Below, one piece after another: positions 4,561 through 29,715 of a stretch of 64,000 nt of DNA (within the stretch, counting starts at the first letter, position 1; every line of letters starts with the position of its first letter). The notes beneath the pieces are model-generated. The model was not told the origin of the DNA. It was given only the letters and a program-made list of their open reading frames with translations, and did no database searches. Source of the DNA: Alcanivorax sp. REN37 (GTDB lineage Bacteria; Pseudomonadota; Gammaproteobacteria; Pseudomonadales; Alcanivoracaceae); contig NZ_JBGCUO010000001.1 of the NCBI RefSeq assembly GCF_041102775.1, positions 2,046,001 to 2,110,000 of the forward strand, read 5' to 3'. Made by a program: the position numbers and the translations under genes.

Positions 4561-5382
4561 TTATGGCCGGCCGCCGCCACAGATCAGTGACTGGCCGCTG
4601 ATGTAGTTGGATTCCGGGATGCACAGCAGATAGACCGAACCGGCCGCTTCCTGCGGCGTGCCGGCACGGCCCAGCGGAATGGTGGACTCGGCCGCTTTCA
4701 GGTTGGCACTGCGTACACCGACGCGGATCGCGCGGCCTTCGATGTCGACCGTGGTTTCTTCTTCGGTGGGCTGGGTCAGGCGGGTGTTGATCAGCGCAAA
4801 CGCCACCGCGTTGACGTTCACTTTGTAGCGGCCCCACTCTTTCGCAAGCGCCTTGGTCATGCCGACGATGCCGGCCTTGGCAGACGAATAGTTGGCTTGG
4901 CCAGCGTTGCCAAGCACGCCGGAGGTGGACGAAATATTCACCACCTTGCGGAACACTTCTTCACCGCGCTCAGCTTCTTCTTTGGCCGCTTTGCGGATGA
5001 ACTCGGAGGCGGCGCGCAGGATTTTGAACGGCGCGGTCAAGTGCACATCGATAATGGCGTGCCACTGCTCGTCGGTCATTTTCTGGATCACGTTGTCCCA
5101 GGTGTAACCGGCGTTGTTGACGATGATGTCGAGCCCGCCAAGCTGCTCCACTGCGGTATTAACAAAGCGCTCGGCAAAACCGTCTTCGGTGACGCTGCCA
5201 ACGCAGGCCACGGCGCGGCCGCCGGCGGCAATGATGTCGGCCACGGTTTCATTGGCCGGTGCTGCATCGAGGTCGTTGACCACCACCGCCGCGCCTTCGC
5301 TGGCCAGTTTCAGGGCGATTTCACGGCCGATGCCGCGGCCGGAGCCGGATACGATGGCGACTTTGCCAGTCAGTTTGCTCAT
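4561..5382 (-). CDS. SDR family oxidoreductase, probable 3-hydroxyacyl-CoA dehydrogenase
   Basis: 273-residue short-chain dehydrogenase with all catalytic elements: cofactor motif GSGRGIG (13-19), NNAG (89-92), Ser at about 151/152 in NISST and Tyr165-x3-Lys169 in YSSAK. An acidic residue pair (NDLD, 37-40) after the second strand favours NAD over NADP. An insertion of about 15 charged residues (KAAKEEAERGEE) before the NISS strand, and the C-terminal GQSLICGGGRP, resemble bacterial FabG-like 3-hydroxyacyl-CoA dehydrogenases in acyl-CoA operons. Its place between the hydratase genes and the acyl-CoA dehydrogenase supports the 3-hydroxyacyl-CoA oxidation step. A FabG role in lipid synthesis is less likely here. 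Confidence 0.85.
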   Translation of the reverse strand: MSKLTGKVAIVSGSGRGIGREIALKLASEGAAVVVNDLDAAPANETVADIIAAGGRAVACVGSVTEDGFAERFVNTAVEQLGGLDIIVNNAGYTWDNVIQKMTDEQWHAIIDVHLTAPFKILRAASEFIRKAAKEEAERGEEVFRKVVNISSTSGVLGNAGQANYSSAKAGIVGMTKALAKEWGRYKVNVNAVAFALINTRLTQPTEEETTVDIEGRAIRVGVRSANLKAAESTIPLGRAGTPQEAAGSVYLLCIPESNYISGQSLICGGGRP

Positions 5383-5411
5383 GTTGTGCTACTCCCCAAG
5401 TGGGTATCGAT

Positions 5412-5831
5412 TCAGTTCGGCAGGCCGAATTCGGCCTCGCCCTTGAGTTTGATGTCGCCGTGCTGATTGGCGCTGGTGAGCGCCACCCGCACCCGCGTTT
5501 CGCCGTCCACCTGTTCCACCGCGGTCACTTCCCCTTGGCAGCTGATGGCATCGCCGATATGGGTGATCGACACAAAACGCACGTCAAAGCGGCGCAGCTG
5601 GTGCTGCGGTGCCCAGCCGGTCAGCAACCGACCGAGGTAGGCCATCGACAGCATGCCGTGGGCGAACACATCGTCCTGGCCCGCCGCGCGGGCAAAATCC
5701 AGGTCCACGTGAATCGGGTTGTGGTCGCCGGAAGCGCCGCAATACAGCGCCAGATCGAGGCGGCTGATGGGGGTGGTGGTCAGCACCGGCAGCGCGTCGC
5801 CGACCCGGGCTTGAGACAAGGAAGCAGTCAT
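5412..5831 (-). CDS. MaoC-like (R)-enoyl-CoA hydratase, catalytic half
   Basis: 139-residue single hot-dog fold protein of the MaoC/hydratase-2 type. The catalytic pair is visible: Asp36 and His41 in GDHNPIHVD, followed by the FAHGM loop at 57-60. It stands 14 bases after the stop of the next gene upstream (5846-6289), which encodes a second hot-dog subunit. Small split MaoC pairs of this kind, such as HadA/HadB and steroid side-chain hydratases, act as heterodimers in which only one partner carries the Asp/His dyad; this gene encodes that partner. The expected reaction is hydration of an enoyl-CoA, feeding the SDR downstream. Confidence 0.88.
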   Translation of the reverse strand: MTASLSQARVGDALPVLTTTPISRLDLALYCGASGDHNPIHVDLDFARAAGQDDVFAHGMLSMAYLGRLLTGWAPQHQLRRFDVRFVSITHIGDAISCQGEVTAVEQVDGETRVRVALTSANQHGDIKLKGEAEFGLPN

Positions 5832-18146: not shown

Positions 18147-20519
18147 TTTCTGAGCTGCCTGTGCGGCAGCGAACCGGTCCGGGCGTGGACCTGATGCCGC
18201 TTGTTCTTTCTGAGCTGCCTGCGCGACAGCGAACGCTCTGCTCCGCGCTGCTCTCAGATTCCCCGCGTTTCTGAGCTGCCTGCGCGGCAGCGAACGTTAC
18301 AGCCCGAATGTTTCAATCGTCGGGCCGTTTCTGAGCTGCCTGCGCGGCAGCGAACATCGGGTCCAGCGTCACGCTGGCGCGGGTTGTGTTTCTGAGCTGC
18401 CTGCGCGGCAGCGAACATCCGGCATTTGTGCCACCCATGGCACTAAGTTTTCTGAGCTGCCTGCGCGGCAGCGAACAACATCTCGAACGGAACTGTCCCG
18501 ATCCGGTCTTTCTGAGCTGCCTGCGCGGCAGCGAACGGTTCAAAATGTTGGCCGCGCCGACGGCTTATTTTCTGAGCTGCCTGCGCGGCAGCGAACGCAG
18601 TGCTACGAACAAGCCTGGACCACCTACTTTTCTGAGCTGCCTGCGCGGCAGCGAACAGGCGCGTATTCGCGCTGTGGGCGCAGCTGCCTTTCTGAGCTGC
18701 CTGCGCGGCAGCGAACGGTGGTTTCATCGCGTGCCCCGGCTGCCTCCCTTTCTGAGCTGCCTGCGCGCCAGCGAACGTAGAGCTTGAATGCCTGCTGAGC
18801 GGTGTTTATTTCTGAGCTGCCTGCGCGGCAGCGAACAGGCGCGTAGTCGCGCTGTGGGCGGAGCTGCCTTTCTGAGCTGCCTGCGCGGCAGCGAACGGTG
18901 GTTTCATCGCCTGCCCCGGCTGCCTCCCTTTCTGAGCTGCCTGCGCGGCAGCGACCGGTGGTTTCATCGCCTGCCCCGGCTCCCACCCTTTCTGAGCTGC
19001 CTGCGCGGCAGCGACCGGTGGTTTCATCGCCTGCCCCGGCTCCCACCCTTTCTGAGCTGCCTGCGCGGCAGCGACCGGTGGTTTCATCGCCTGCCCCGGC
19101 TCCCACCCTTTCTGAGCTGCCTGCGCGGCAGCGACCGGTGGTTTCATCGCCTGCCCCGGCTGCCTCCCTTTCTGAGCTGCCTGCGCGGCAGCGAACTCAC
19201 GGCGAAAGCGCCGTCTGAAGGGCTGTAGTTTCTGAGCTGCCTGCGCGGCAGCGAACAAGGCTTACGAAGCGGGCGCCGGCTGGGTGCGTTTCTGAGCTGC
19301 CTGCGCGGCAGCGAACGAAAGGGCCGCGCTCGCAGGTGGTGCGGCGCGTTTCTGAGCTGCCTGCGCGGCAGCGAACGAAAGGGCCGCGCTCGCAGGTGGT
19401 GCGGCGCGTTTCTGAGCTGCCTGCGCGGCAGCGAACGAGGCTTACGAAGCGGGCGCCGGCTGGGTGCGTTTCTGAGCTGCCTGCGCGGCAGCGAACGAGG
19501 ATGCCGTCGTAGTTGGAGGCGTCGAACATTTCTGAGCTGCCTGCGCGGCAGCGAACAGCTGTCGTGTACCGGACTTCCCCCGATCGCGTTTCTGAGCTGC
19601 CTGCGCGGCAGCGAACCCCTTGATCCAGTGTTGATCGCGGGCGCTATCTTTCTGAGCTGCCTGCGCGGCAGCGAACCTGTTCCATATTCCCCCGCTGCGC
19701 ATTTCCCTTTTCTGAGCTGCCTGCGCGGCAGCGAACGAAAGGGCAGCGCTCGCCGGTGCTGACGCGCTTTTCTGAGCTGCCTGCGCGGCAGCGAACTTTT
19801 CGGGACACTTAGGCTTGGTTGGACATGCTTTTCTGAGCTGCCTGCGCGGCAGCGAACCGGGGGATTGAGTGACGGCTGACGGCAGCGCTTTTCTGAGCTG
19901 CCTGCGCGGCAGCGAACTTTTCGGGACACTTTGGCTTGCTTGGACATGCTTTTCTGAGCTGCCTGCGCGGCAGCGAACCGGGGGATTGAGTGACGGCTGA
20001 CGGCAGCGCTTTTCTGAGCTGCCTGCGCGGCAGCGAACGACGGCTCCGGGGCTGCCCCCGGCCACCGCTTTTTCTGAGCTGCCTGCGCGGCAGCGAACGC
20101 CGGGGATTGGGCAGCGTTTGTTGAGTGGATGTTTCTGAGCTGCCTGCGCGGCAGCGAACGAGCTGTCCGACTTGGGTGTCAGTAACCCTAGTTTCTGAGC
20201 TGCCTGCGCGGCAGCGAACCTACATCGACGACTGGAACCTGACACGGCACATTTCTGAGCTGCCTGCGCGGCAGCGAACACGTAGTAGTAGTGCTCGTTG
20301 GCGATCTTGCGTTTCTGAGCTGCCTGCGCGGCAGCGAACGGTGGTTTCATCGCCTGCCCCGGCTGCCTCCCTTTCTGAGCTGCCTGCGCGGCAGCGAACG
20401 TAGAGCTTGAATGCCTGCTGAGCGTTGTTTATTTCTGAGCTGCCTGCGCGGCAGCGAACCGTGGGCTGCTCGCCCACACCCCGGCCAGTATTTTCTGAGC
20501 TGCCTGCGCGGCAGCGAAC
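18147..20519 (-). CRISPR. Type I-F CRISPR array, 40 repeats and 39 spacers
   Basis: Forty 28-base repeats (plus-strand form begins TTTCTGAGCTGCC and ends GCGGCAGCGAAC) alternate with 39 spacers, 34 of 32 bases and five of 33. Read on the minus strand the repeat is GTTCGCTGCC GCGCA GGCAGCTCAGAAA, with the 5-bp Cas6f stem CTGCC/GGCAG and the 8-base handle CTCAGAAA of type I-F. Transcription is leftward, as for the cas genes. The leader is at the 20520 side; repeats at the other end (18147, 18207) carry mismatches, as expected for the oldest end. Variants: the repeat at 18749 has a G-to-C change, and four repeats (18929, 18989, 19049, 19109) end GACC instead of GAAC. Several spacers are duplicated exactly or with 1-2 changes (see findings). 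All the plus and minus open frames across this block are array artefacts. Confidence 0.98.
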
Positions 20520-20647: not shown

Positions 20648-21214
20648 TCAGAACCACGGCACACTGCCCTCCCCGCCCAACCCATAGCTGTTGAACACTC
20701 CGCTGGTGGGCTGGTCTTGCAGGGCGCCATGATGGATAAACAGGCAAAACGACTGGCCGGTGCTTTGGCTACGTAGGTGGACATACGGCAGCGTCGGGCG
20801 CCGCTCGATGCTGTACGGAATCGCCTCTGCGGCGGCTTCGGCGGTTTCGCCCTTCCTGCGCATGCGACGACGGCGGAGACGTTCAGCATTAGTCTTGAAT
20901 TGCTGGCGACGGACGGTGCGATGTTTGCAGCCGTCAGGCACCGCCGCAATATCTGTGGCTTGCACGTGATCGCGCAGGGCTTTAAGCCAATCCATCGCTG
21001 CCATCTGGCGCAACCGAGCTTCACTGCCATGCAGCCGCAGCACCTGTCCCAGCGAGCGCGGTTGCAAGCTATGCCTAGGAAAACTGACGCCCACGTCGTC
21101 CCAGCGCTGTTGCACCAATAGCTGGTGCAGCCGGCCGTACAAAGCACCCAGCAACTGCGTGCCGCTGGTTTCCGGGTCTGGCATGACCTTGAGATCCAGA
21201 TAATGGGTTGTCAT
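20648..21214 (-). CDS. cas6f: Cas6f (Csy4) CRISPR pre-crRNA endoribonuclease
   Basis: 188-residue type I-F RNA-processing enzyme that cleaves each repeat 3' of its hairpin and stays bound to the crRNA 3' end in the Csy complex. It starts MTTHYLDLKVMPDPE, a typical Csy4 N-terminus. The catalytic His is in GRLHQLL near residue 29. The arginine-rich RNA-groove helix is ERLRRRRMRRKG, and the C-terminal blocks LRSQSTGQSFCLFIHHG and VPWF are conserved. The ATG at 21214 is 4 bases past the cas7f stop, so translation is probably coupled; the upstream in-frame start at 21244 lies inside cas7f. It is last in the cas operon, next to the leader. Confidence 0.96.
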   Translation of the reverse strand: MTTHYLDLKVMPDPETSGTQLLGALYGRLHQLLVQQRWDDVGVSFPRHSLQPRSLGQVLRLHGSEARLRQMAAMDWLKALRDHVQATDIAAVPDGCKHRTVRRQQFKTNAERLRRRRMRRKGETAEAAAEAIPYSIERRPTLPYVHLRSQSTGQSFCLFIHHGALQDQPTSGVFNSYGLGGEGSVPWF

Positions 21215-21218
21215 GCCG

Positions 21219-22241
21219 TCACCCCGCGTCACCGAACACGCCACCGCGGATCAAGGTGGCCATAACGAAGTGCTGTTGATCGGTGTCCGGCGCCTTGTCC
21301 TTGAGCACCCAACCATCCAGCAAATTATAGAAATCCAGTTTGTCCTTGGGTTGACGATAGGCACGCCCTTGGGTGGTCACCGAGCCATAGGGTTCCACTG
21401 CAATCGGGCCGTTTTCATCGGCTTCGGGGTACCAAGTATCGATAGTACGCAGCGCATTGCCGATCTTTTGGGAGTGCATCGCCGCCACACCATCAACGTG
21501 GTAAAGCGTCTTGCTCTTGTCACCACGACCGCGCTCAAGGATCAGTTCTTGTGATGGGAATACTTCTTGGCCACCACCGAGGCGCACAAAAGCAGTCACT
21601 TGCAACAGCAGATGTCGGGTGCCGGCCAGACCTTCGGCAATGACATGGCCCAGCTCCACCACGCTGGCGTCGTCACGGCTGAACTGGCGCAGGCTCAGCG
21701 CCAACGCATCGAAGCGCCACTCTTGGGCCTGCTGCCCGGCTTCCATGCGTGCCACGCGCACCTGCACCTGCTCAGCACCGATGCGGTTGCGCCATAGGAA
21801 GCGGCCATTGGCCAAGTTGGCGGCGTAACGAATGGCCAGCTCAGCAAAGCCGTGTTCAGCCGTATAGCCGTCGACGACTTGCGACAACTTGGCTTGATAC
21901 TCCGCGTTGTTGCAGGCCGATGGTGCGCCCGCGCCGGGCAGCACGCGCACTGTGAAGGTCACTTTCAAGGTGTCGGCAGCAGCCGGCAGCGCGGCGGTAT
22001 CTACCGTTTGCGGGTTTGGGCTTGTGATAGAAGCATCCAGCTTGGCCGTATCCTGGTCCTTGGCTTTGAGGCGGTTGGAAATAGTGCCGCGCACCGATTT
22101 CTCGCGCACGGCCACCGGCGCCCACTGGGCGGCAGTGTCTTGCTGTTGCCAGTCGCCGGCATGAAATAATGCATCGGAGGGATCAAGTTTGCGCTCAAAG
22201 GCCAGAACGCTAGCGGTTTTCAGCGGTGCTTTACTCATCAT
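21219..22241 (-). CDS. cas7f: Cas7f (Csy3) Cascade backbone protein
   Basis: 340-residue type I-F backbone subunit, six copies of which coat the crRNA spacer in the Csy complex. The N-terminus [21 protein letters not shown] and the C-terminal [18 protein letters not shown] segment are typical Csy3 blocks. AAGGA lies 5 bases before the first of two adjacent ATGs (22241 and 22238). A gap of 36 bases separates it from cas5f, the largest within the csy genes. Length agrees with the family (about 340). Confidence 0.95.
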
Positions 22242-22277: not shown

Positions 22278-23333
22278 TCAGTCGTAGTCATAAAAGTCAT
22301 CGTCGGGATCGTCCGCCGCCGCCAGCCCGTAGCCGCTGCGGCAGCGGTACAGCGCTTTCGCATGATCGACCTCTGGCTGCCACAACAACGCTTCCACATC
22401 GGTGATCCGGTGCGGGCTCACCCACTCGCCGATGGAGTACACCGACTCGACAAACCGCAGCGGCGTGCGCTCGTCCCGTGCATGGCGCACCTGCCCGGCG
22501 CCATGCAGCGCGGACAGGCCGACATAGCCCACTGGAATCGGCACCAGCCAGCCACTGCCTTTGCCGCGCTGTGGATCACGCCAGCGGACGCTGCCTTTCA
22601 CTGCGGTTGCGTTGGCGTCGTGTGGGTCAGCGCGATAATTGAAGCGCGACAGCTCTAACCAGGCGTCCAGCGCGGTGGCGTCCGGATCGCTGGTCTGCAA
22701 TTGCGTCAGCCATTCGGCGAGCACGTCATCGCGCCCCACCAGTGCAAAACCGGGCAGCCACTGCCGCCGCCATTGGCGAAACTGGCGCGCGCGCTTATCA
22801 GGGTCATCCGCCAACAGCCGTAACCAAGGCCGCACCATGCGCCCAGGACCCACCACCGGCGGCAACACACTGCCGCCCGCCACACGCATGCCAGCAAGGG
22901 TGTCGGCAGCGTGCTGAGCCCAGCCATTGAGCACGTCATCACCGACTTGCGTCAGCAGAACCGGTTCAACGTTGGCAACACGCTTTTGTTGCACCAGAAA
23001 CACCAGCGTCAGCTCCAGGTGGGTGCGTCCTTCCTCGACAATGCCGGCGGTGCCACCGTCGCGGCCCACCGGGTTGCGGGTCAGGCGGAAAGTCTTGACG
23101 TAGCCACTGTTCACCTGCTCCTGCTGAGCATGACAAATGACGCCGACTTTCAGCAGCCGCAGCGGTACTGGCTCTGCCGCCAGTTTGCGCTCCAGCGCCC
23201 ACATCAGGCCGACGAACGCGGTGATGGAGGGAAATCCATGGGTCATCTGACTGGAGATCGCGTTGGCGTTTTGCACGCGCAGGTGTGGCACTACTAACAG
23301 CCCTTGGGCGCTGCTGAGAGGAATTTCGTTCAT
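22278..23333 (-). CDS. cas5f: Cas5f (Csy2)
   Basis: 351-residue subunit that, with Cas8f, binds the 5' handle of the crRNA at the foot of the type I-F Csy complex. Recognisable blocks are GLLVVPHLRVQNANAISSQMTHGFPSITAF (in two halves, LLVVPHLRVQNANA and MTHGFPSITAF) and the C-terminal FVESVYSIGEWVSPHRI. The ATG at 23333 overlaps the cas8f stop (ATGA); a longer frame to 23399 runs into cas8f. The very C-terminus is acidic (DDPDDDFYDYD). No sign of truncation. Confidence 0.95.
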   Translation of the reverse strand: MNEIPLSSAQGLLVVPHLRVQNANAISSQMTHGFPSITAFVGLMWALERKLAAEPVPLRLLKVGVICHAQQEQVNSGYVKTFRLTRNPVGRDGGTAGIVEEGRTHLELTLVFLVQQKRVANVEPVLLTQVGDDVLNGWAQHAADTLAGMRVAGGSVLPPVVGPGRMVRPWLRLLADDPDKRARQFRQWRRQWLPGFALVGRDDVLAEWLTQLQTSDPDATALDAWLELSRFNYRADPHDANATAVKGSVRWRDPQRGKGSGWLVPIPVGYVGLSALHGAGQVRHARDERTPLRFVESVYSIGEWVSPHRITDVEALLWQPEVDHAKALYRCRSGYGLAAADDPDDDFYDYD

Positions 23334-24718
23334 GCGGACACCTCGCCGATGGAACCTTGATCGCCCGCCTGCGGTACTTCCAATTTCTGGCGCAGACAAT
23401 GCAGCTGATGCGCCCAGCCTGCGTCGCTCTCATCGACCCGTAGCTGTTTCTTCCAATGTCGCAGCTCGGCATCACCAAACACGTGCTTGCCTTCCAACCG
23501 TGCATTCAGCCACTGCCCGAAGCGATGGCCGACAGCGTCTGGCCAATCCATCCACAACCACTCCCGAGCGAACTCCGCTTCGTCGGGCAGTTCCGCACGC
23601 AGCGGATCCAGCCACAGCTGTTCCTCCCGCACCAACTCTTGGCAGTCTTGCCCCCGGCTCCATCCGGGCGGCAGCGCCTGCAGGAAACCGGCAGCCATGA
23701 TGTTCAGCTCATCAATCAGCCGCTCGACCAAGGCCTCCACGCGGTCGCGAGTGGTGCTGTTACGCTCCGGATCGCTTTCCAGTAACGTGCGCAACCGTTG
23801 CACGGTACGGCGCACTGCCGGACGACCGGCGTAGATCCGCTCGAACACAGAGCGCGTGTGAATCGGCACGCGAAACTCGGACGCCTTCCATGTGGGCGGC
23901 AATGAGGACAGCAGGTAGTTGATGCCGCCCCGTTCACTATTGAGCTGGGAGATATTTTGCGGCTTGGTCCCCCCCAGCTTTTGTACCGCTATGTTGGGGT
24001 AATGATGGAAAGTGCCGTCGTGGTGGTTGCGGTCCCGATAGGCTTGGCGTGCCTGTTTGTTAGCGTCACCGAAGCGGTGTTCCTGCAATACGGCGTGAAC
24101 GTTATGGGCCAACGACGTCGCGTATAACGGCGCCAGCAGGTGGTATTGGGCGTCGTCGACCGGATCATCACCGATCAGCCAATAAAGCTGTTTAGCGTGG
24201 GTATGACTGCCAGGAGATTCCTCGCGGGCACCGGTCAGACTGACGAACGCATCACGCAGCGTTTTGGCCCGCAGCGGATCATCACTCAACGCCGACAAAG
24301 CGTCGGTGCTTTCGATTTCCAACGCCTGCAACAGGCTCTGGCCATCCACTTCCAGCCGCAGCAGCTTGTACACATCTAGCGCAGCGGCGTTGCCTACTAC
24401 GTCACTCACGAACTGCTCGCCCAGGACATGGCTGCCTACCTCATCCAGCGCCGCCATGACGGAGGGCATGACATAGAGGTTGGTACCGCGCGCATCGGGA
24501 TGGATGGGCTTCAACGAGTGGGTGACCGCTTGGATTTGCCGGACACGGCGGGCGGCGTCATCCAGCCAAGGATCACGCTGGTGCTGAGTCAAGATATCGG
24601 CCCGCTTGGGATCATCATCTTTGAGTTTGTCGAGCTTGGCGTCGCGCCGCTCCTGTATGAAGCGATCGACAGCCGCGCGGAAACTCGGCGCTGTTTCATC
24701 CATTGGGTTGTTATTCAC
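23330..24718 (-). CDS. cas8f: Cas8f (Csy1), large subunit of the type I-F Cascade
   Basis: 462-residue large subunit that recognises the CC PAM and heads the Csy complex. Csy1 hallmarks include FRAAVDRFIQERRDAKLDKL at the start, LGGTKPQNISQLNSERGG in the middle and the W-rich REWLWMDWPDA near the end. I chose GTG at 24718 because AAAGGA lies six bases upstream; the ATG at 24739 precedes that ribosome site and the ATG at 24703 is a shorter alternative. Unlike the compact I-F operons I know, in which cas3 and csy1 are close together, it is separated from cas2-3 by about 480 bases full of repeats and hairpins, so the csy genes probably have their own promoter. Confidence 0.94.
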   Translation of the reverse strand: MNNNPMDETAPSFRAAVDRFIQERRDAKLDKLKDDDPKRADILTQHQRDPWLDDAARRVRQIQAVTHSLKPIHPDARGTNLYVMPSVMAALDEVGSHVLGEQFVSDVVGNAAALDVYKLLRLEVDGQSLLQALEIESTDALSALSDDPLRAKTLRDAFVSLTGAREESPGSHTHAKQLYWLIGDDPVDDAQYHLLAPLYATSLAHNVHAVLQEHRFGDANKQARQAYRDRNHHDGTFHHYPNIAVQKLGGTKPQNISQLNSERGGINYLLSSLPPTWKASEFRVPIHTRSVFERIYAGRPAVRRTVQRLRTLLESDPERNSTTRDRVEALVERLIDELNIMAAGFLQALPPGWSRGQDCQELVREEQLWLDPLRAELPDEAEFAREWLWMDWPDAVGHRFGQWLNARLEGKHVFGDAELRHWKKQLRVDESDAGWAHQLHCLRQKLEVPQAGDQGSIGEVSA

Positions 24719-24755
24719 GAGAATTCCTTTCCGTAGCATAAGATGCTGTTAGAAT

Positions 24756-24784
24756 TGCCCGAGTCGACACACGGCACTCGGGCA
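24756..24784. repeat. 9-bp inverted repeat in the cas8f 5' region
   Basis: TGCCCGAGT (24756-24764) and ACTCGGGCA (24776-24784) are perfect inverted copies around an 11-base loop, ending 38 bases upstream of the cas8f GTG. No T run follows on either strand. It may be a regulator site or an RNA hairpin in the cas8f leader. Confidence 0.5.
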
Positions 24785-24797
24785 GTCCCTTAGCTCA

Positions 24798-24833
24798 AGA
24801 GGCCTCCGCTTAAGTTGGAGAGGCTTCCGCTTA
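24798..24833. repeat. Two near-identical 15-base direct repeats 21 bp apart
   Basis: AGAGGCCTCCGCTTA (24798) and AGAGGCTTCCGCTTA (24819) differ at one base and are spaced two helical turns apart, a layout typical of paired activator or repressor sites. They lie 80-115 bases upstream of cas8f. No known regulator is assigned. Confidence 0.5.
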
Positions 24834-24919
24834 GATGGCTCTTCTGGGCGCGTAGCGGCCAACCACTGAGATACCCTCCTGCCGTCTTTGACGACTGTTG
24901 TGCTCACTGAAGTTACGGA

Positions 24920-24947
24920 CTTGGATCAGGTGGCGGCCTGATCCAAG
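24920..24947. repeat. 11-bp perfect inverted repeat upstream of cas8f
   Basis: CTTGGATCAGG (24920-24930) and CCTGATCCAAG (24937-24947) form an 11-bp stem with a 6-base loop. It has no T tract on either side, so it is more likely an operator or structured RNA than a terminator. Confidence 0.5.
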
Positions 24948-25063
24948 AGCTGCTTCCTCTCAACCGACTCATCTGAAGAGTGCCTCGAGACCATGTCGAT
25001 CAGTTTCTGGATCAAAGCTCTGAATCGGAAAGCAAAGTCGGGCTAGGCACGTCATCTGTCTGC

Positions 25064-25092
25064 TCGACATGGGCATCCATAGTGCCTACATT
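25064..25092 (+). promoter_or_regulatory. Sigma-70-like promoter driving the crRNA-like element
   Basis: TCGACA (25064-25069; 5/6 match to TTGACA) and TACATT (25087-25092; 4/6 match to TATAAT) are separated by exactly 17 bases, on the plus strand. Transcription would begin near 25099 and run into the repeat-like element at 25126. The pseudo-spacer target (25079 onward) covers the -10 box. Promoter prediction by eye only. Confidence 0.5.
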
Positions 25093-25110
25093 AATTTATC
25101 CATGCAAATT
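25079..25110 (+). other. Probable target site of the pseudo-spacer, with CC PAM
   Basis: ATAGTGCCTACATTAATT (25079-25096) matches the first 18 bases of the pseudo-spacer at 25154 in 16 positions. The first eight are perfect, and the mismatches fall at 9 and 12; position 12 is one of the flipped-out, tolerated positions of type I crRNAs. Bases 25077-25078 are CC, the type I-F PAM in the right orientation. Beyond base 18 the match stops, as in guides that allow binding without full cleavage. Confidence 0.6.
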
Positions 25111-25137
25111 GTTGCGTGGGGCTTCGCCATCTGCTGA
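25102..25137 (+). CDS. Eleven-codon mini-ORF downstream of the targeted promoter
   Basis: ATG at 25102 to TGA at 25137 encodes a short hydrophobic peptide (MQIVAWGFAIC). If transcription starts near 25099 the mRNA would be almost leaderless, and there is no ribosome site. The stop lies in the loop of the first repeat-like hairpin. In CreTA modules a guide RNA represses a tiny toxin RNA, so this is the only candidate for that part, but it may equally be meaningless. Confidence 0.2.
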   Translation: MQIVAWGFAIC

Positions 25138-25206
25138 AAAAGCAGCTCAGAAAATAGTGCCAACGTTAATTCCCAAACTTTCTCTGCCGCATAGGCAGTC
25201 AGCCCT
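25126..25206 (+). ncRNA. crRNA-like RNA (repeat - pseudo-spacer - repeat), CreR/CreTA-type candidate
   Basis: The first repeat-like unit (25126-25153) matches the reverse-complement array repeat at 19 of 28 bases and perfectly over its last 12 (GCAGCTCAGAAA), including the 8-base crRNA handle. Its stem is CTGCT/AGCAG instead of CTGCC/GGCAG, a compensatory C-G to T-A change. A 25-base pseudo-spacer follows (25154-25178). The second unit (about 25179-25206) has an exact CTGCC/GGCAG stem with a GCATA loop like the classic GTATA loop of type I-F repeats, then TCAG. Cas6f cleavage after 25145 and 25198 would release a 53-nt crRNA-like RNA. It is antisense to the end of cas2-3 and lies between cas2-3 and cas8f. 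Transcription has not been shown. Confidence 0.65.
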
Positions 25207-28200
25207 TCTTGCAAAACCCCAACACCGGGTGAAACCACCAGCCCTGCTCCGACCGGGGCAGGCTGACGGTGGCGAAGGACTCGGCGCAGCGACGCAGATC
25301 TTCGCCCCGAGCCTCCGCTAGCTCGGCCAGCGCAGCCAGCGGATCAACCTGCCCCCAAGGCGCAATGCCAGGGCCCGCCACCACCTCATCCGGCAGGTGC
25401 CAGCAGCTTTCCTCCTCCGGGGTATACAGCGGCGCTCTGCGCCGGCCGCTGCCGGTGAGACGATGCAGCAGCAGGGCATCCTCGTCGTCGTTCGGCAGCA
25501 TCACCGCGTCACAGCGCGCCGTAGAGTCGTGCCGGAAGCGCTGGGCTTGTGGCAGCACCCCACTGAGCCAAGCCAAAGGCACGTTCCAATGGCTGCTGGC
25601 ATTGAGCATCCAGGGGGCGGCAGCCTGTGCGCGCTCCCCCTGACCGGGAAGAGTGGGACGCATGGCATGGCGCAGGCGCGCGTGCTCCAAATCCGCCAAG
25701 TGACCGGTGGGCATCAACCGGCGCCCCTGGGGCAGACGTAGACGAGGGCTTGCATCCAGCACCCAGCGGCCGTGCTGGTCGAGCTGATCGGCCAACAGTT
25801 CTCGCAGGGAATGGGTGCTTAGGTGGAAGTTGGGATAACGCGCGCTGCGTTCGGGCGAGTTAGCCTGGCAGCGCTTAACGTCCTCGAAGCCCGGTCGACA
25901 ATAGACCGCCTCCTTAACGTCACTTCGTTCGAAAAAGTGGACGTTGTGATCCGCCACCAACACGTTTGTCCGGTCGACCGGACCCGGGCGATGCCGACGC
26001 ACCCGCCCGGCCAACTGGATCAGCGACCGCATGGACGATGGCTCCACCACTGCCCAGTCGTAGTCATGGTCGCGCCCCACTTCAGTGACCGGGCTGCCGA
26101 GTACGACGAACAATTGGTCCGGCTCCGGATGGGCGTCCAATGCCTGACGCACCTGCGCGCGTGAAAACACCGGATCAGGGTCCGCCAGCGACGAGCGCCG
26201 GCGGTCCAGTGCAGTGTCCAAGCGATGTTCTATTGCCGAACGCAAGAACAGCGGGAATTGTGAGTGATAAACGCACAAGTGCACGCGTATGCCCTGCGGA
26301 ACTCCCAAGACGAACAAGGCCTGGGCCACCTTATACAAGGGCCCAATGTTGGCCATGCGGATCAGCCCGAAGCTGACCCGTTTGCCGCTGGCCGGATCAA
26401 CATTGTGGTTCTGCGGATCCCGATGCAGACGCAGCGCCGCGTCTCGCCATAGCGCCGCCCAGTGTGCCGGGCGCTCGGCTTTCGGCACGGCGCCGAAGTC
26501 CACCGGCAACAACTCGGCGATGCGGCGCACTGGCGCCGCCGCCAATCGGCGGATGCGGGCCTCGGCAAAGCTGTCATGGGCCGCTAGAAACACGGCCTCA
26601 TCACTGCACTCGGCGTGCCGGCAGCTGAACTCATCCACCCACAGGCATGGAATCCGCAACAGCTCATTTGGCCGCTGGGCGCGATGATGCTGCCAATGAG
26701 TACGGCCATCGCAGTAGGCCTGAAAGAGTCCCTGCACCAGCGCTGGCGGCAACGTCGCTGATGACAACAGCACGCGCGCGCCAAGCAGACCAGCCCAGTG
26801 CACCAAGCGGGTCAGGGCCGGCAAGTCGTCGAGATCGAAATCGTCTGGTTCGTCCAGTACCAGGTCCCCAGTCAGCAACCGCAGCATGGGCGCGATGTGG
26901 CGCCCGCCGCGCAAGCTTTCAGTGGCCGGCGTGAGGTGGTCGACGGTACACACCAACACCGGCGCGGCAATCAGGCGACGGCTGCGGGCGTCGCGGGTCA
27001 GCCGCTGCAGCAGCGGATGACGGTCGTCGCCTTCGTATAGCACATGGCTGTCCTCATCCAGCAACGCTTGGCGCGACGCCGAGCCACGGGCTTCCTCCTT
27101 GGTTTCGTGGTGCTCGAACAGCGCCCGACTGGCGGCACCGCCCACCAGAATCGCCAGCTCATCGTCATCCAGCGTGAGATCGCGTTGGAAGCTGCGGCCG
27201 GTTTGCTGGGTCAGCGTGCGCAGGCCGATGGCAAAGGCGCAGCGCAAGCCATGGGTCGGTTCCGCCAAGGCATACATGATGCGGGCGTTGGCGAGGGTCT
27301 TGCCGCAGCCGGTGGAGGCCATATTGACGATGAAGGCACCCTGCTCAACCGTGCGTTCACGCACCGACCGGGCCAGGTCAACCGCCTTGTCCTGCCAGCG
27401 AAATGCCTCGCGAGTGGTGCGGCGACTCAAGCCACGGTGACGCTGCAGCGCCGGCAAACTGCGTACCAATGAGGGCAGGCCGTGCACGACGCGGTTGGCG
27501 GTGGCGTGCACGCCGAGCAGATGTTCATCGAGAGTTTGGTTGTAACGGTACTGACCGTCACAGCGGGCGGTATTGGCCTGCAGTCGAGCCTGCGGCTTCA
27601 GGTAGCGTTGGCGCTCGGGAGCCGGCTGCCAGGCAGCACACTCCGCGCTGCGCTCGAAGGTAAGACTGGAGTAATAGTGATCCGACAGCATCAGGCAGAG
27701 CCTTGATACGTGCATCACAAACGGATCTTGCAACCAAGTTTCGCCCCGCTGCGTCCACGGCAACAACGCTTTAGCCTGCCGCGCCGCTTGTTTGCGCCAG
27801 TCGCGGTCAGTAACCGGCAGCCCGTGCGGGAAACGCCAGTAAGCGCCGAGGTCGACGTCGCCGCGGCACTGCGGCGGCTGGTTCCAGTCCGCGTCGATTT
27901 GCGCAAGCAAGCCGCTGAGCTGCTCCGGGTTCAATGAGTCCGGCCGCGCACCGTGTGCCAAGAATGGAGATCGAGAGCTATCGGACTGCTCGGCCTGTGC
28001 TGAACGGCGCACCGGCAAAGCTGGCAAGCGGTGATGGGTGAGTACCAACCAAGCCACCGCCTGTGCCAAGGGCGGCAAGCTGTCAAACAACGAGCCAGCC
28101 CGCGTGGCGGAGCTGTTCAGCGATGGCAGGCCATCGCATTGCAGACGCTCCGCGCTAAGCCATTCGGACAGCCAAGCGCCGTCGTCAGTTCGCGACGCCG

Positions 28201-28735
28201 CCGCAACCAACCTCTGCAACCAAGCCGCGTCATCGTCTCCACCCACAAAGGCCTGGAACAAACGCACTGACACCCACTCATGACGATAGTGAGTTGTCCC
28301 AGGCATCACCCCACCCATCGCCGCGGTCAGCATCTGCTGGAACGCCTCGGTGGCTTTGCCCACGTCATGCAGCAGCGCCGCCAAGGCGGTCAGTGCCTGC
28401 ATCAGTGGTAAGTGGTGCCAGGTATTTTCGTCGTCGCGGCGTAATACATCACGGCCGGTGCGATGGGTCGGCACCGCGCCCTCGGCATTGAAACGCCGGG
28501 CATCACCAACGATCCACAGCAACTCAGAATGGTCATGTCCGCGAAGCCAGTGACACGCCACGGCGGTGTTCTTGCGAGCAGTCTTGCGCAGTAAGCGCCG
28601 CAGCGTCCGCAGCCCCTCCTGGGTAATGGGTGTCTGCCAAGTACGGTCACCGCGTCGCTCGGCGAATTGATCAATGAGACGGCGGGTTTCGGTGAGCGCG
28701 CGTTTGTCGCACTGGCTGATCAGCAGAATATTCAT
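25199..28735 (-). CDS. cas3: Cas2-3 fusion: type I-F helicase-nuclease and adaptation protein
   Basis: 1178 residues. An N-terminal Cas2-like domain (MNILLISQCDKRALTETRRL onward, about 1-95) is fused to the HD nuclease (ALLHDVGKATEAF near 120; HYRHEW near 150) and an SF2 helicase. Helicase motifs are ASTGCGKT (Walker A, near 475), LVLDEPDDFD (motif II, with DEPD in place of DEAD/DExH), LLSSATLPPA (motif III) and QLAGRVRRHRPG (motif VI). The fusion is diagnostic of type I-F. It degrades targets opened by the Csy complex and works with Cas1 to capture spacers. The start overlaps the cas1 stop by 4 bases. The end of the gene is overlapped on the opposite strand by the crRNA-like element. Confidence 0.97.
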   Translation of the reverse strand: MNILLISQCDKRALTETRRLIDQFAERRGDRTWQTPITQEGLRTLRRLLRKTARKNTAVACHWLRGHDHSELLWIVGDARRFNAEGAVPTHRTGRDVLRRDDENTWHHLPLMQALTALAALLHDVGKATEAFQQMLTAAMGGVMPGTTHYRHEWVSVRLFQAFVGGDDDAAWLQRLVAAASRTDDGAWLSEWLSAERLQCDGLPSLNSSATRAGSLFDSLPPLAQAVAWLVLTHHRLPALPVRRSAQAEQSDSSRSPFLAHGARPDSLNPEQLSGLLAQIDADWNQPPQCRGDVDLGAYWRFPHGLPVTDRDWRKQAARQAKALLPWTQRGETWLQDPFVMHVSRLCLMLSDHYYSSLTFERSAECAAWQPAPERQRYLKPQARLQANTARCDGQYRYNQTLDEHLLGVHATANRVVHGLPSLVRSLPALQRHRGLSRRTTREAFRWQDKAVDLARSVRERTVEQGAFIVNMASTGCGKTLANARIMYALAEPTHGLRCAFAIGLRTLTQQTGRSFQRDLTLDDDELAILVGGAASRALFEHHETKEEARGSASRQALLDEDSHVLYEGDDRHPLLQRLTRDARSRRLIAAPVLVCTVDHLTPATESLRGGRHIAPMLRLLTGDLVLDEPDDFDLDDLPALTRLVHWAGLLGARVLLSSATLPPALVQGLFQAYCDGRTHWQHHRAQRPNELLRIPCLWVDEFSCRHAECSDEAVFLAAHDSFAEARIRRLAAAPVRRIAELLPVDFGAVPKAERPAHWAALWRDAALRLHRDPQNHNVDPASGKRVSFGLIRMANIGPLYKVAQALFVLGVPQGIRVHLCVYHSQFPLFLRSAIEHRLDTALDRRRSSLADPDPVFSRAQVRQALDAHPEPDQLFVVLGSPVTEVGRDHDYDWAVVEPSSMRSLIQLAGRVRRHRPGPVDRTNVLVADHNVHFFERSDVKEAVYCRPGFEDVKRCQANSPERSARYPNFHLSTHSLRELLADQLDQHGRWVLDASPRLRLPQGRRLMPTGHLADLEHARLRHAMRPTLPGQGERAQAAAPWMLNASSHWNVPLAWLSGVLPQAQRFRHDSTARCDAVMLPNDDEDALLLHRLTGSGRRRAPLYTPEEESCWHLPDEVVAGPGIAPWGQVDPLAALAELAEARGEDLRRCAESFATVSLPRSEQGWWFHPVLGFCKKG

Positions 28736-29715
28736 TGGGCCGGGCCCATAGAGCCTGACACCTGCAGGGCGATGTCTTTCAAGCTATCGATGATGAAGTC
28801 CAACGACTCACTGCGAGTCAGCGCTTCAATGCAGTGACGGCGGAACTGCGCTTCCTCATCACCACGCATGGCAGACAGGAAAGCCTGCGGCAGGATGCTG
28901 GCATCTTTGACCAAGTCGGCGGCATCAAACACCAGTCCGCCGCGACGGGTTTTACCGTGCAGCACCGCCAAGCCATGGGGCAGCCCCAGCACCCAAGTGG
29001 CGGTGGCGCCCAAGCCATAAGCCAGATAATTGCCATGATCGAGAAAGCGGTTAGCCGGATCCGCTCCCGTACCGCGCTTGGCGCGCGTGAAGTCGCCGTA
29101 TCCCACAGTGTCCACCGCCAATTTGAACAGTGCTTTAGTCAGGCGTGCTTCTTCTGTGAGCAACGCTGTGGTGTCCGCTGACGATTGAATGCGCGTCGCA
29201 CTCGCCGTTAGCAGAGCATCCAACCGCTCGACATTTACAGCAAAGCCGGCCGCTACCAAAGAGCGCTTGGACCACTGCTGTCGCACCCGTTCGAGTCGGC
29301 GCTGCTGGAGCAGGCGTGCCGCTTCGACCCGACAGGCGTCATCAAACCAAAAGCGCACCCAAGCTTGCAGATACTCGGTGGGCCGGTATTCGCTCTGCGG
29401 CGAAAACCACGCCACTTCCACATCCACTTCATTAGCTGAAAACAAAGGCGTGCCACCGCCACCACAAAAGCCCACCAACACACCGGCTTTGGCCAGTTCG
29501 CGCATTGCCGCCTGGGTAATCGACGTACCGGTGCCCAATAACACCGAGGTGGTATTGGCAATGGGGATATTCCAGTAAAGCGACTCCTTACCTTGATCGG
29601 TGACATATTCGACCCGACCGCCTTTCACCAATACCCGGCAATGCTGCAGGTAATAAAGGTTAGCGCGCTTGGAGTGGAGAATGGTTTTTAAATCCGACGA
29701 GGCTAAGACATCCAT
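28732..29715 (-). CDS. cas1: Cas1 (type I-F) spacer integrase
   Basis: 327 residues. The N-terminal beta region has the I-F opening LKTILHSKRANLYYLQHCRVLVKGGRV (starting LKTILHSKRAN). The active-site elements include the Glu in LTEEARLTKALFK, the His in the LAYGLGATATWVLGLPHGLAV segment and the Asp-rich GGLVFDAADLVKD. It forms the integration complex with Cas2-3. AAGGGA lies just before the ATG at 29715. It is the first gene of the cas operon; no promoter could be fixed in the upstream gap. No inactivating change is visible. Confidence 0.96.
   Translation of the reverse strand: MDVLASSDLKTILHSKRANLYYLQHCRVLVKGGRVEYVTDQGKESLYWNIPIANTTSVLLGTGTSITQAAMRELAKAGVLVGFCGGGGTPLFSANEVDVEVAWFSPQSEYRPTEYLQAWVRFWFDDACRVEAARLLQQRRLERVRQQWSKRSLVAAGFAVNVERLDALLTASATRIQSSADTTALLTEEARLTKALFKLAVDTVGYGDFTRAKRGTGADPANRFLDHGNYLAYGLGATATWVLGLPHGLAVLHGKTRRGGLVFDAADLVKDASILPQAFLSAMRGDEEAQFRRHCIEALTRSESLDFIIDSLKDIALQVSGSMGPAQ

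Follow-up and report, generated by a model that had tools for sequence, protein, structure and literature searches.

Which gene does a crRNA-like RNA control when it is encoded inside a type I-F cas locus, on the strand opposite to the cas genes? The question is raised by a 64,000-nt stretch of the Alcanivorax sp. REN37 genome (the window), in which a gap of 459 bases separates cas2-3, ending at 25199, from cas8f, beginning at 24739. An earlier note on this DNA took the gap to encode a crRNA-like regulator, in the class of CreTA and CreR, and left open which gene it represses. The class has held up, with a guide-target match beyond chance and relatives that follow the same rules. Since the layout equals that published for the I-F CreTA of Acinetobacter, and since downstream of the target there is a divergent mini-ORF with a Shine-Dalgarno (SD) sequence and two consecutive AGA codons, the locus is likely a type I-F CreTA module proper, as opposed to CreR alone. 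The arrangement is already known from Acinetobacter and, judged by analogy, the window holds a further I-F CreTA example, in which a tiny guide RNA probably keeps an adjoining toxic mini-gene off.

The cas genes of the type I-F locus lie on the minus strand, with the array beyond cas6f, and a profile search placed cas1f, cas3f (cas2-3) and csy1-4 all above their NCBIfam cut-offs (Table 1). Within the array (18147-20519), repeat-spacer units are duplicated internally, with one 121-nt pair (19764/19885) 98 percent alike, and one spacer start is present in several copies at about 18926-19150.

Table 1. Features of the type I-F locus in the window; coordinates count from the first base of the window.
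Feature	Coordinates	Strand	Basis
cas1f	28732..29715	-	NCBIfam
cas2-3 (Cas3f)	25199..28735	-	NCBIfam
creA psiR2, second repeat-like unit, with Cas6f-type hairpin at 25184-25198	25179..25206	+	
creA psiS, pseudo-spacer, 25 nt	25154..25178	+	
Mature CreA RNA, predicted, 53 nt: 8-nt handle, guide, 3' hairpin	25146..25198	+	inferred by analogy with I-F crRNA as described in the accessible text of PMC10097628
creA psiR1, degenerate ectopic repeat, 5-bp stem plus CTCAGAAA 5' handle	25126..25153	+	
CreA target, protospacer strand, 16/18, CC PAM 25077-25078	25079..25096	+	
Sigma-70-like promoter facing creA, TCGACA-17-TACATT, overlapping the target	25064..25092	+	
creT Shine-Dalgarno AGGAGG	24875..24880	-	
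creT mini-ORF, 11 codons + stop: GTG GTT GGC CGC TAC GCG CCC AGA AGA GCC ATC TAA	24831..24866	-	
creT start-codon hairpin; pairs 1:15, 2:14, 3:13, 4:12 possible	24852..24866	-	
Tandem AGA AGA, creT codons 8-9	24840..24845	-	
GC-rich stem-loop past creT, 8-bp arms, 11-nt loop, without U-run	24757..24783	-	
cas8f (csy1)	23330..24739	-	NCBIfam
cas5f (csy2)	22278..23399	-	NCBIfam
cas7f (csy3)	21219..22241	-	NCBIfam
cas6f (csy4), expected processor of CreA	20648..21244	-	NCBIfam
CRISPR array, 28-nt repeats, spacing ~60 nt	18147..20519	-	

Re-reading of the gap recovered the crRNA-like unit on the plus strand, opposite to cas, in each of the parts that had been described. The first repeat-like unit, psiR1 (25126-25153), is identical to the array repeat at 19 of 28 positions overall and retains its last 12 bases, including the intact handle CTCAGAAA; its stem has changed from the CTGCC-GCGCA-GGCAG of the array to CTGCT-GAAAA-AGCAG. 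A second hairpin, CTGCC-GCATA-GGCAG, follows the 25-base pseudo-spacer at 25184-25198, and the end of psiR2 overlaps the 3' end of cas2-3 (25199), which is on the opposite strand. A search of the whole genome with the stem-plus-handle pattern returned 38 minus-strand matches, which lie in the array, and a single plus-strand match, psiR1. Folding of the creA RNA gave no clear excess of stability over shuffled sequences. Repeat degeneration is treated in the accessible text of PMC9458426.

Bases 1-18 of the pseudo-spacer match 25079-25096 at 16 positions, with mismatches at 9 and 12 and with CC at 25077-25078, as the earlier note had stated, while the second-best 18-base match in the window reaches 12. 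Among 5000 shuffled pseudo-spacers compared with both strands of 24740-25125, with or without the PAM rule, none reached 15 or more matches and the best reached 14; a chance repeat match is therefore ruled out. Across the 3.02-Mb genome, the target is the sole site within three mismatches of the pseudo-spacer, besides the pseudo-spacer itself. It lies 340 bases upstream of cas8f and is also upstream of creT.

The promoter named in the earlier note, TCGACA-N17-TACATT, is present and overlaps the target, and it was the sole sigma-70-like site in a scan of 24500-25400 (shuffle mean 0.2). As it faces the antitoxin gene creA, we rejected a repressed plus-strand promoter as the main reading. Because the site is oriented toward the crRNA-like unit, it is more likely creA's own promoter, and since it overlaps the target, creA may repress itself. 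For a minus-strand promoter of creT, the best site was no better than those in shuffled sequences (297/500).

The creT-like mini-ORF, absent from the earlier account, lies beyond the target on the cas strand. Its GTG start is placed 8 bases behind AGGAGG and can enter a hairpin, of which only the inner four pairs are available and the outer pairs are not formed; the minimum-energy fold has a shifted register that still holds the start codon within a stem. Neither the 53-nt mini-ORF stretch nor the whole creT leader folded with excess stability (134/200 and 20/100 shuffles, respectively, were at least as stable). A further hairpin, CTTGGATCAGG / CCTGATCCAAG, is present in the creT leader at 24919-24947. 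No protein toxin of the CrePA kind was seen between target and cas8f: there is no minus-strand ORF of at least 60 aa in 24740-25198, and the SD-led ORFs from target to cas8f have at most 37 codons.

The tandem AGA codons of creT stand out against the codon usage of the window. Among the 14,151 codons of 38 genes predicted in the window beyond the cas/array region, AGA occurs twice (0.14 per 1000), less often than any other sense codon; AGG, ATA and TTA come next, and these genes contain no AGA/AGG tandem. Rfam identifies 42 tRNA genes in the genome, and ARAGORN, run over stretches covering all 42, found one gene for tRNA-Arg(UCU). The flanking cas genes of relatives also use the tandem codon rarely, though in some of them another codon is rarer still (for example, ATA 4 and AGA 1 in L020; AGA 6 and TTA 2 in L044). 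The very rare codon pair in the window's copy may explain how the toxin acts.

These features are consistent with the following CreTA mechanism. CreA would be transcribed from the plus strand, and after cleavage by Cas6f it would join the Csy complex; Csy-CreA would then bind the target through a match presumably too short for attack by Cas3. Once bound, the complex would keep creT, on the cas strand, from being transcribed. Loss or inhibition of the Csy complex would allow creT to be made, and its strong initiation site would load ribosomes that stall at the two AGA codons; the stalled ribosomes would tie up the single tRNA-Arg(UCU) and growth would stop. A cell without its CRISPR machinery would thus be stopped or killed, which would make it addicted to the CRISPR effector. 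Sequestration of tRNA-Arg(UCU) is the least certain step, to which we give roughly an even chance.

Additional evidence that the guide and its target form a module came from a survey of 82 cas8f-upstream regions, including that of the window; match rows G122, G079, G744 and two of G600 were left out of this set. Scanning the last 900 bases of each region, on the strand opposite to cas only, called a psiR1-like repeat with handle in 23 regions; for L025, creA was recognised by eye only. In 20 of the 23, a site next to CC on the same strand matches the pseudo-spacer at 11 to 17 of 18 bases. At most one of 2000 shuffles was as good for 17 of these matches, and 2, 14 and 84 of 2000 were as good for the other three. 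In two loci, L022 and L035, the match is on the other strand, where no shuffles were run; the complex would there bind reversed. No CC-flanked match was found in the remaining locus, L030.

In the Csy complex, every sixth guide base is flipped out. Mismatches in the 22 matches pile up at positions 6 (16 of the matches), 12 (17) and 18 (15) and are absent from positions 1-5 and 8, as the sixth-base periodicity of the Csy backbone would lead one to expect. The window follows the rule in part: its mismatches are at 9 and 12, while positions 6 and 18 are paired, unlike most relatives at 6. Comparison of the cas2-3/cas8f intergenic regions of relatives, which the earlier note had suggested, showed units that differ in sequence and obey the same rules of repeat, handle and PAM-flanked match. 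Conservation of creA is by rule rather than by sequence.

Evidence for the mini-ORF came from a finder applied to the same 82 regions, which required an SD sequence, a start codon, three or more of the four stem pairs and tandem rare codons starting anywhere in codons 5-13. It returned 12 matches on the cas strand vs 1 on the opposite strand, which served as the control for both finder and tandem. One match, L104 (TTG start, 3/4 pairs, AGG AGG), was set aside as doubtful, leaving 11 creT loci; L017, with a single AGA at codon 9, is outside the 11. While its position was not imposed, the tandem lies at codons 8-9 in 10 of the 11 loci and at codons 6-7 in L044. Its identity varies: AGA AGA in the window (L009), L022, L023, L025, L044 and L047; ATA ATA in L020 and L026; TTA TTA in L028 and L049; and AGA ATA in L015. 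A creA call is present in 9 of the 11 creT loci, and 14 of the 23 creA loci are without a finder-called creT. With finder-called creT and its tandem in just 9 of 23, creA loci do not in general require the tandem.

Stem and tandem also occur together when the stem is not selected for. Of 80 SD-led candidates, nine have the full stem and the tandem, one has the stem only, five have the tandem only and 65 have neither (Fisher 8e-8, a P value that is only indicative since the loci are related); all 16 candidates on the opposite strand have neither. In an alignment of 13 sequences (the 11 creT loci, L017 and that of Acinetobacter LoGeW2-3), the start-codon stem pairs in 85.9 percent of cells, compared with 20.5 to 51.3 percent when slid, and 19 cells are changed on both sides, a count reached by 1 of 500 shuffles. 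On two of five measures the alignment did not exceed shuffles (305/500 for the number of pairs with both sides changed and 64/500 for pair types). Because selection bore in part on the inner four pairs, the unselected pair -1:16 is the better witness; it is paired in 10 of the 13 sequences, in 7 via changes on both sides. A best-stem search, run without a shuffle control, placed a stem of 10-13 positions after creT in 11 of 12 loci.

Of 17 plasmid records, eight were retrieved and six of these were also read. By eye, tandem rare codons are present in LoGeW2-3 (L122), whose mini-ORF reads ATG TTT AGC ACA CAT TTA GTT AGA AGG GTC TAG, with AGA AGG as codons 8-9, and in Vitreoscilla (L124; AGA AGA, codons 9-10); the finder missed both. 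None was seen in L123, L125, L128 or L129, and the mini-ORF of L125 (Acinetobacter ANC 7970) stops early. A pattern search of 369 genomes of the class returned no match for creT with a pattern that required AAGGAGG, which the window's own creT fails, and this negative is given no weight.

The closest known systems are those of Acinetobacter sp. WCHA45, LoGeW2-3 and ANC3789. In the accessible text of PMC10097628, their I-F CreTA lies in the roughly 400 bp that separate cas3 from csy1 and comprises a pair of degenerate repeats, a partly matching target next to CC and, in divergent orientation, a 33-bp creT mini-ORF with an SD; 19 further modules are mentioned there. The window shares the site in the cas3-csy1 gap, the two degenerate repeats, the CC PAM and the partial target, as well as a divergent creT with a mini-ORF of similar length, an SD and a start codon able to enter a stem. 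It differs in its 16/18 match with position 6 paired, its GTG start, the lack of outer stem pairs and the very rare AGA codons. According to the same text, WCHA45 CreT kills cells as RNA and has its start codon within a stem to which pairs 1:15 to 4:12 belong, and LoGeW2-3 creT is toxic. The authors proposed contacts with rRNA and state that the exact target of CreT is still to be identified. Pairing with 23S has been proposed for WCHA45; in the window, a search for pairing of the creT loop within bases 400-600 of its own 23S rRNA neither supported nor contradicted it.

In the part of PMC10097628 available, WCHA45 creT was altered synonymously codon by codon and toxicity was lost only at codons 2, 3 and 5, which argues that neither codon 8 nor codon 9 is required by itself in that system. 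If WCHA45 has the tandem, one synonymous change would leave one rare codon. That text makes no mention of rare codons in I-F CreT, and in the literature searched, so far as accessible, none was found that describes a rare-codon tandem there. The tandem rare codons in 11 creT-like mini-ORFs and in LoGeW2-3 bear on the target of CreT, which that paper, so far as accessible, leaves unidentified.

A precedent for rare-codon toxicity is found in archaea, where CreT with tandem AGA or AUA sequesters rare tRNAs, according to the accessible text of PMC8501985. The type I-B CreTA of Haloarcula hispanica, as described there, shares with the window tandem AGA, a strong SD, a downstream stem-loop and a crRNA-like antitoxin. 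Its AGA codons come right after the start of a 4-codon ORF and its creA has one repeat, whereas in the window the AGA pair comes later, as codons 8-9, after a possible hairpin at the start codon, and the two-repeat creA faces away. Halobacterium hubeiense CreTA, also type I-B, shares the two-repeat creA and tandem rare codons, which are AUA there and AGA in a homolog, much as I-F relatives vary between AGA, ATA and TTA; unlike the window, the creT described in that part of PMC8501985 is leaderless and without an SD. From what is accessible of PMC12055562, the type I-E CreTA of Citrobacter rodentium has a 96-bp ORF without rare codons, unlike the window. CrePA and CreR are reviewed in PMC12737573. 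In the part of that review available, CreR shares the crRNA-like guide near cas genes and a partial target and is generally uncoupled from a toxin gene, while the window has a creT-like mini-ORF with predicted toxicity.

That last contrast bears on a rival reading, in which the unit is CreR only: the guide would direct Csy to the promoter of the csy1-csy4 operon and the mini-ORF would be a leader peptide or a product of chance. The mini-ORF ends 91 bases ahead of cas8f on the same strand, and neither a minus-strand terminator-like site nor a good separate csy1 promoter was found near creT and cas8f. In addition, five other creA loci (L032, L054, L056, L061 and L065) have a CC-flanked target ahead of cas8f and no creT called by the finder, so CreR-like forms may exist in type I-F as well; this suggests that a single layout occurs both with a toxin (CreT) and without one (CreR-like). 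However, relatives and the LoGeW2-3 gap show the SD, the start-codon stem and the rare-codon tandem again, each at a constant position, which neither chance nor a plain leader role predicts, and we regard CreR alone as improbable in the window. L061 has a 9-codon TTG ORF with a weak SD. Decay would explain the degenerate repeats differently, as functionless remains of a mini-array, and relatives without the gap do exist (L010-L013, L016). Against such a relic, stem and handle are retained though other repeat bases changed, the PAM-flanked match was not reached in 5000 shuffles and relatives obey the same mismatch rule; we consider a relic very improbable.

Repression of cas8f in the manner of CreR may also accompany CreTA, given that neither a clear terminator nor a promoter of csy1's own was found. 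With creT and cas8f co-directional and so close together, CreA may also regulate csy1-csy4: one CreA-repressed promoter would drive creT and read through into the operon, and loss of Csy would both poison the cell and raise Csy synthesis. The finder-called creT of relatives is likewise on the cas strand upstream of cas8f. While these data are consistent with such a dual module, the stem after creT in 11 of 12 loci could terminate transcription weakly, and we hold read-through control to be possible, at somewhat less than an even chance.

Within the preferred CreTA reading, a broader proposal can be made for I-F CreT as a two-part translation trap that recurs across the I-F loci of the window's class. 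A start-codon hairpin would load ribosomes and a tandem at codons 8-9, exchanged between AGA, ATA and TTA among relatives, would deplete one scarce tRNA; in the window, creT would in addition be a CreA-repressed leader of csy1-csy4, so that one guide would keep the toxin in check and also make the effector self-regulating. This proposal is tentative, and we would sooner expect it to fail in some part than to hold in full. The SD, the start-codon stem, the codon 8-9 tandem and matches that spare 6/12/18 also offer a computational route to modules that are poorly conserved.

Several relatives carry other genes in the same place. L033 and L034 have a similar small ORF of 67 aa at the place of creT, from target to cas8f, with no Pfam match for that of L033; it is a possible protein toxin, CreP-like by position only. 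In L017 (Luteimonas huabeiensis; 4956-5630, minus strand), genes for a nucleotidyltransferase-domain protein and a HepT-like protein lie beside creA in the cas gap. The cas2-3/cas8f gap of L018 (a MAG named Delftia acidovorans; 5157-5831, minus strand) holds a HigB-like toxin gene and an HTH gene, and between these two a lone Cas6f-type hairpin is seen by eye at about 5515-5529.
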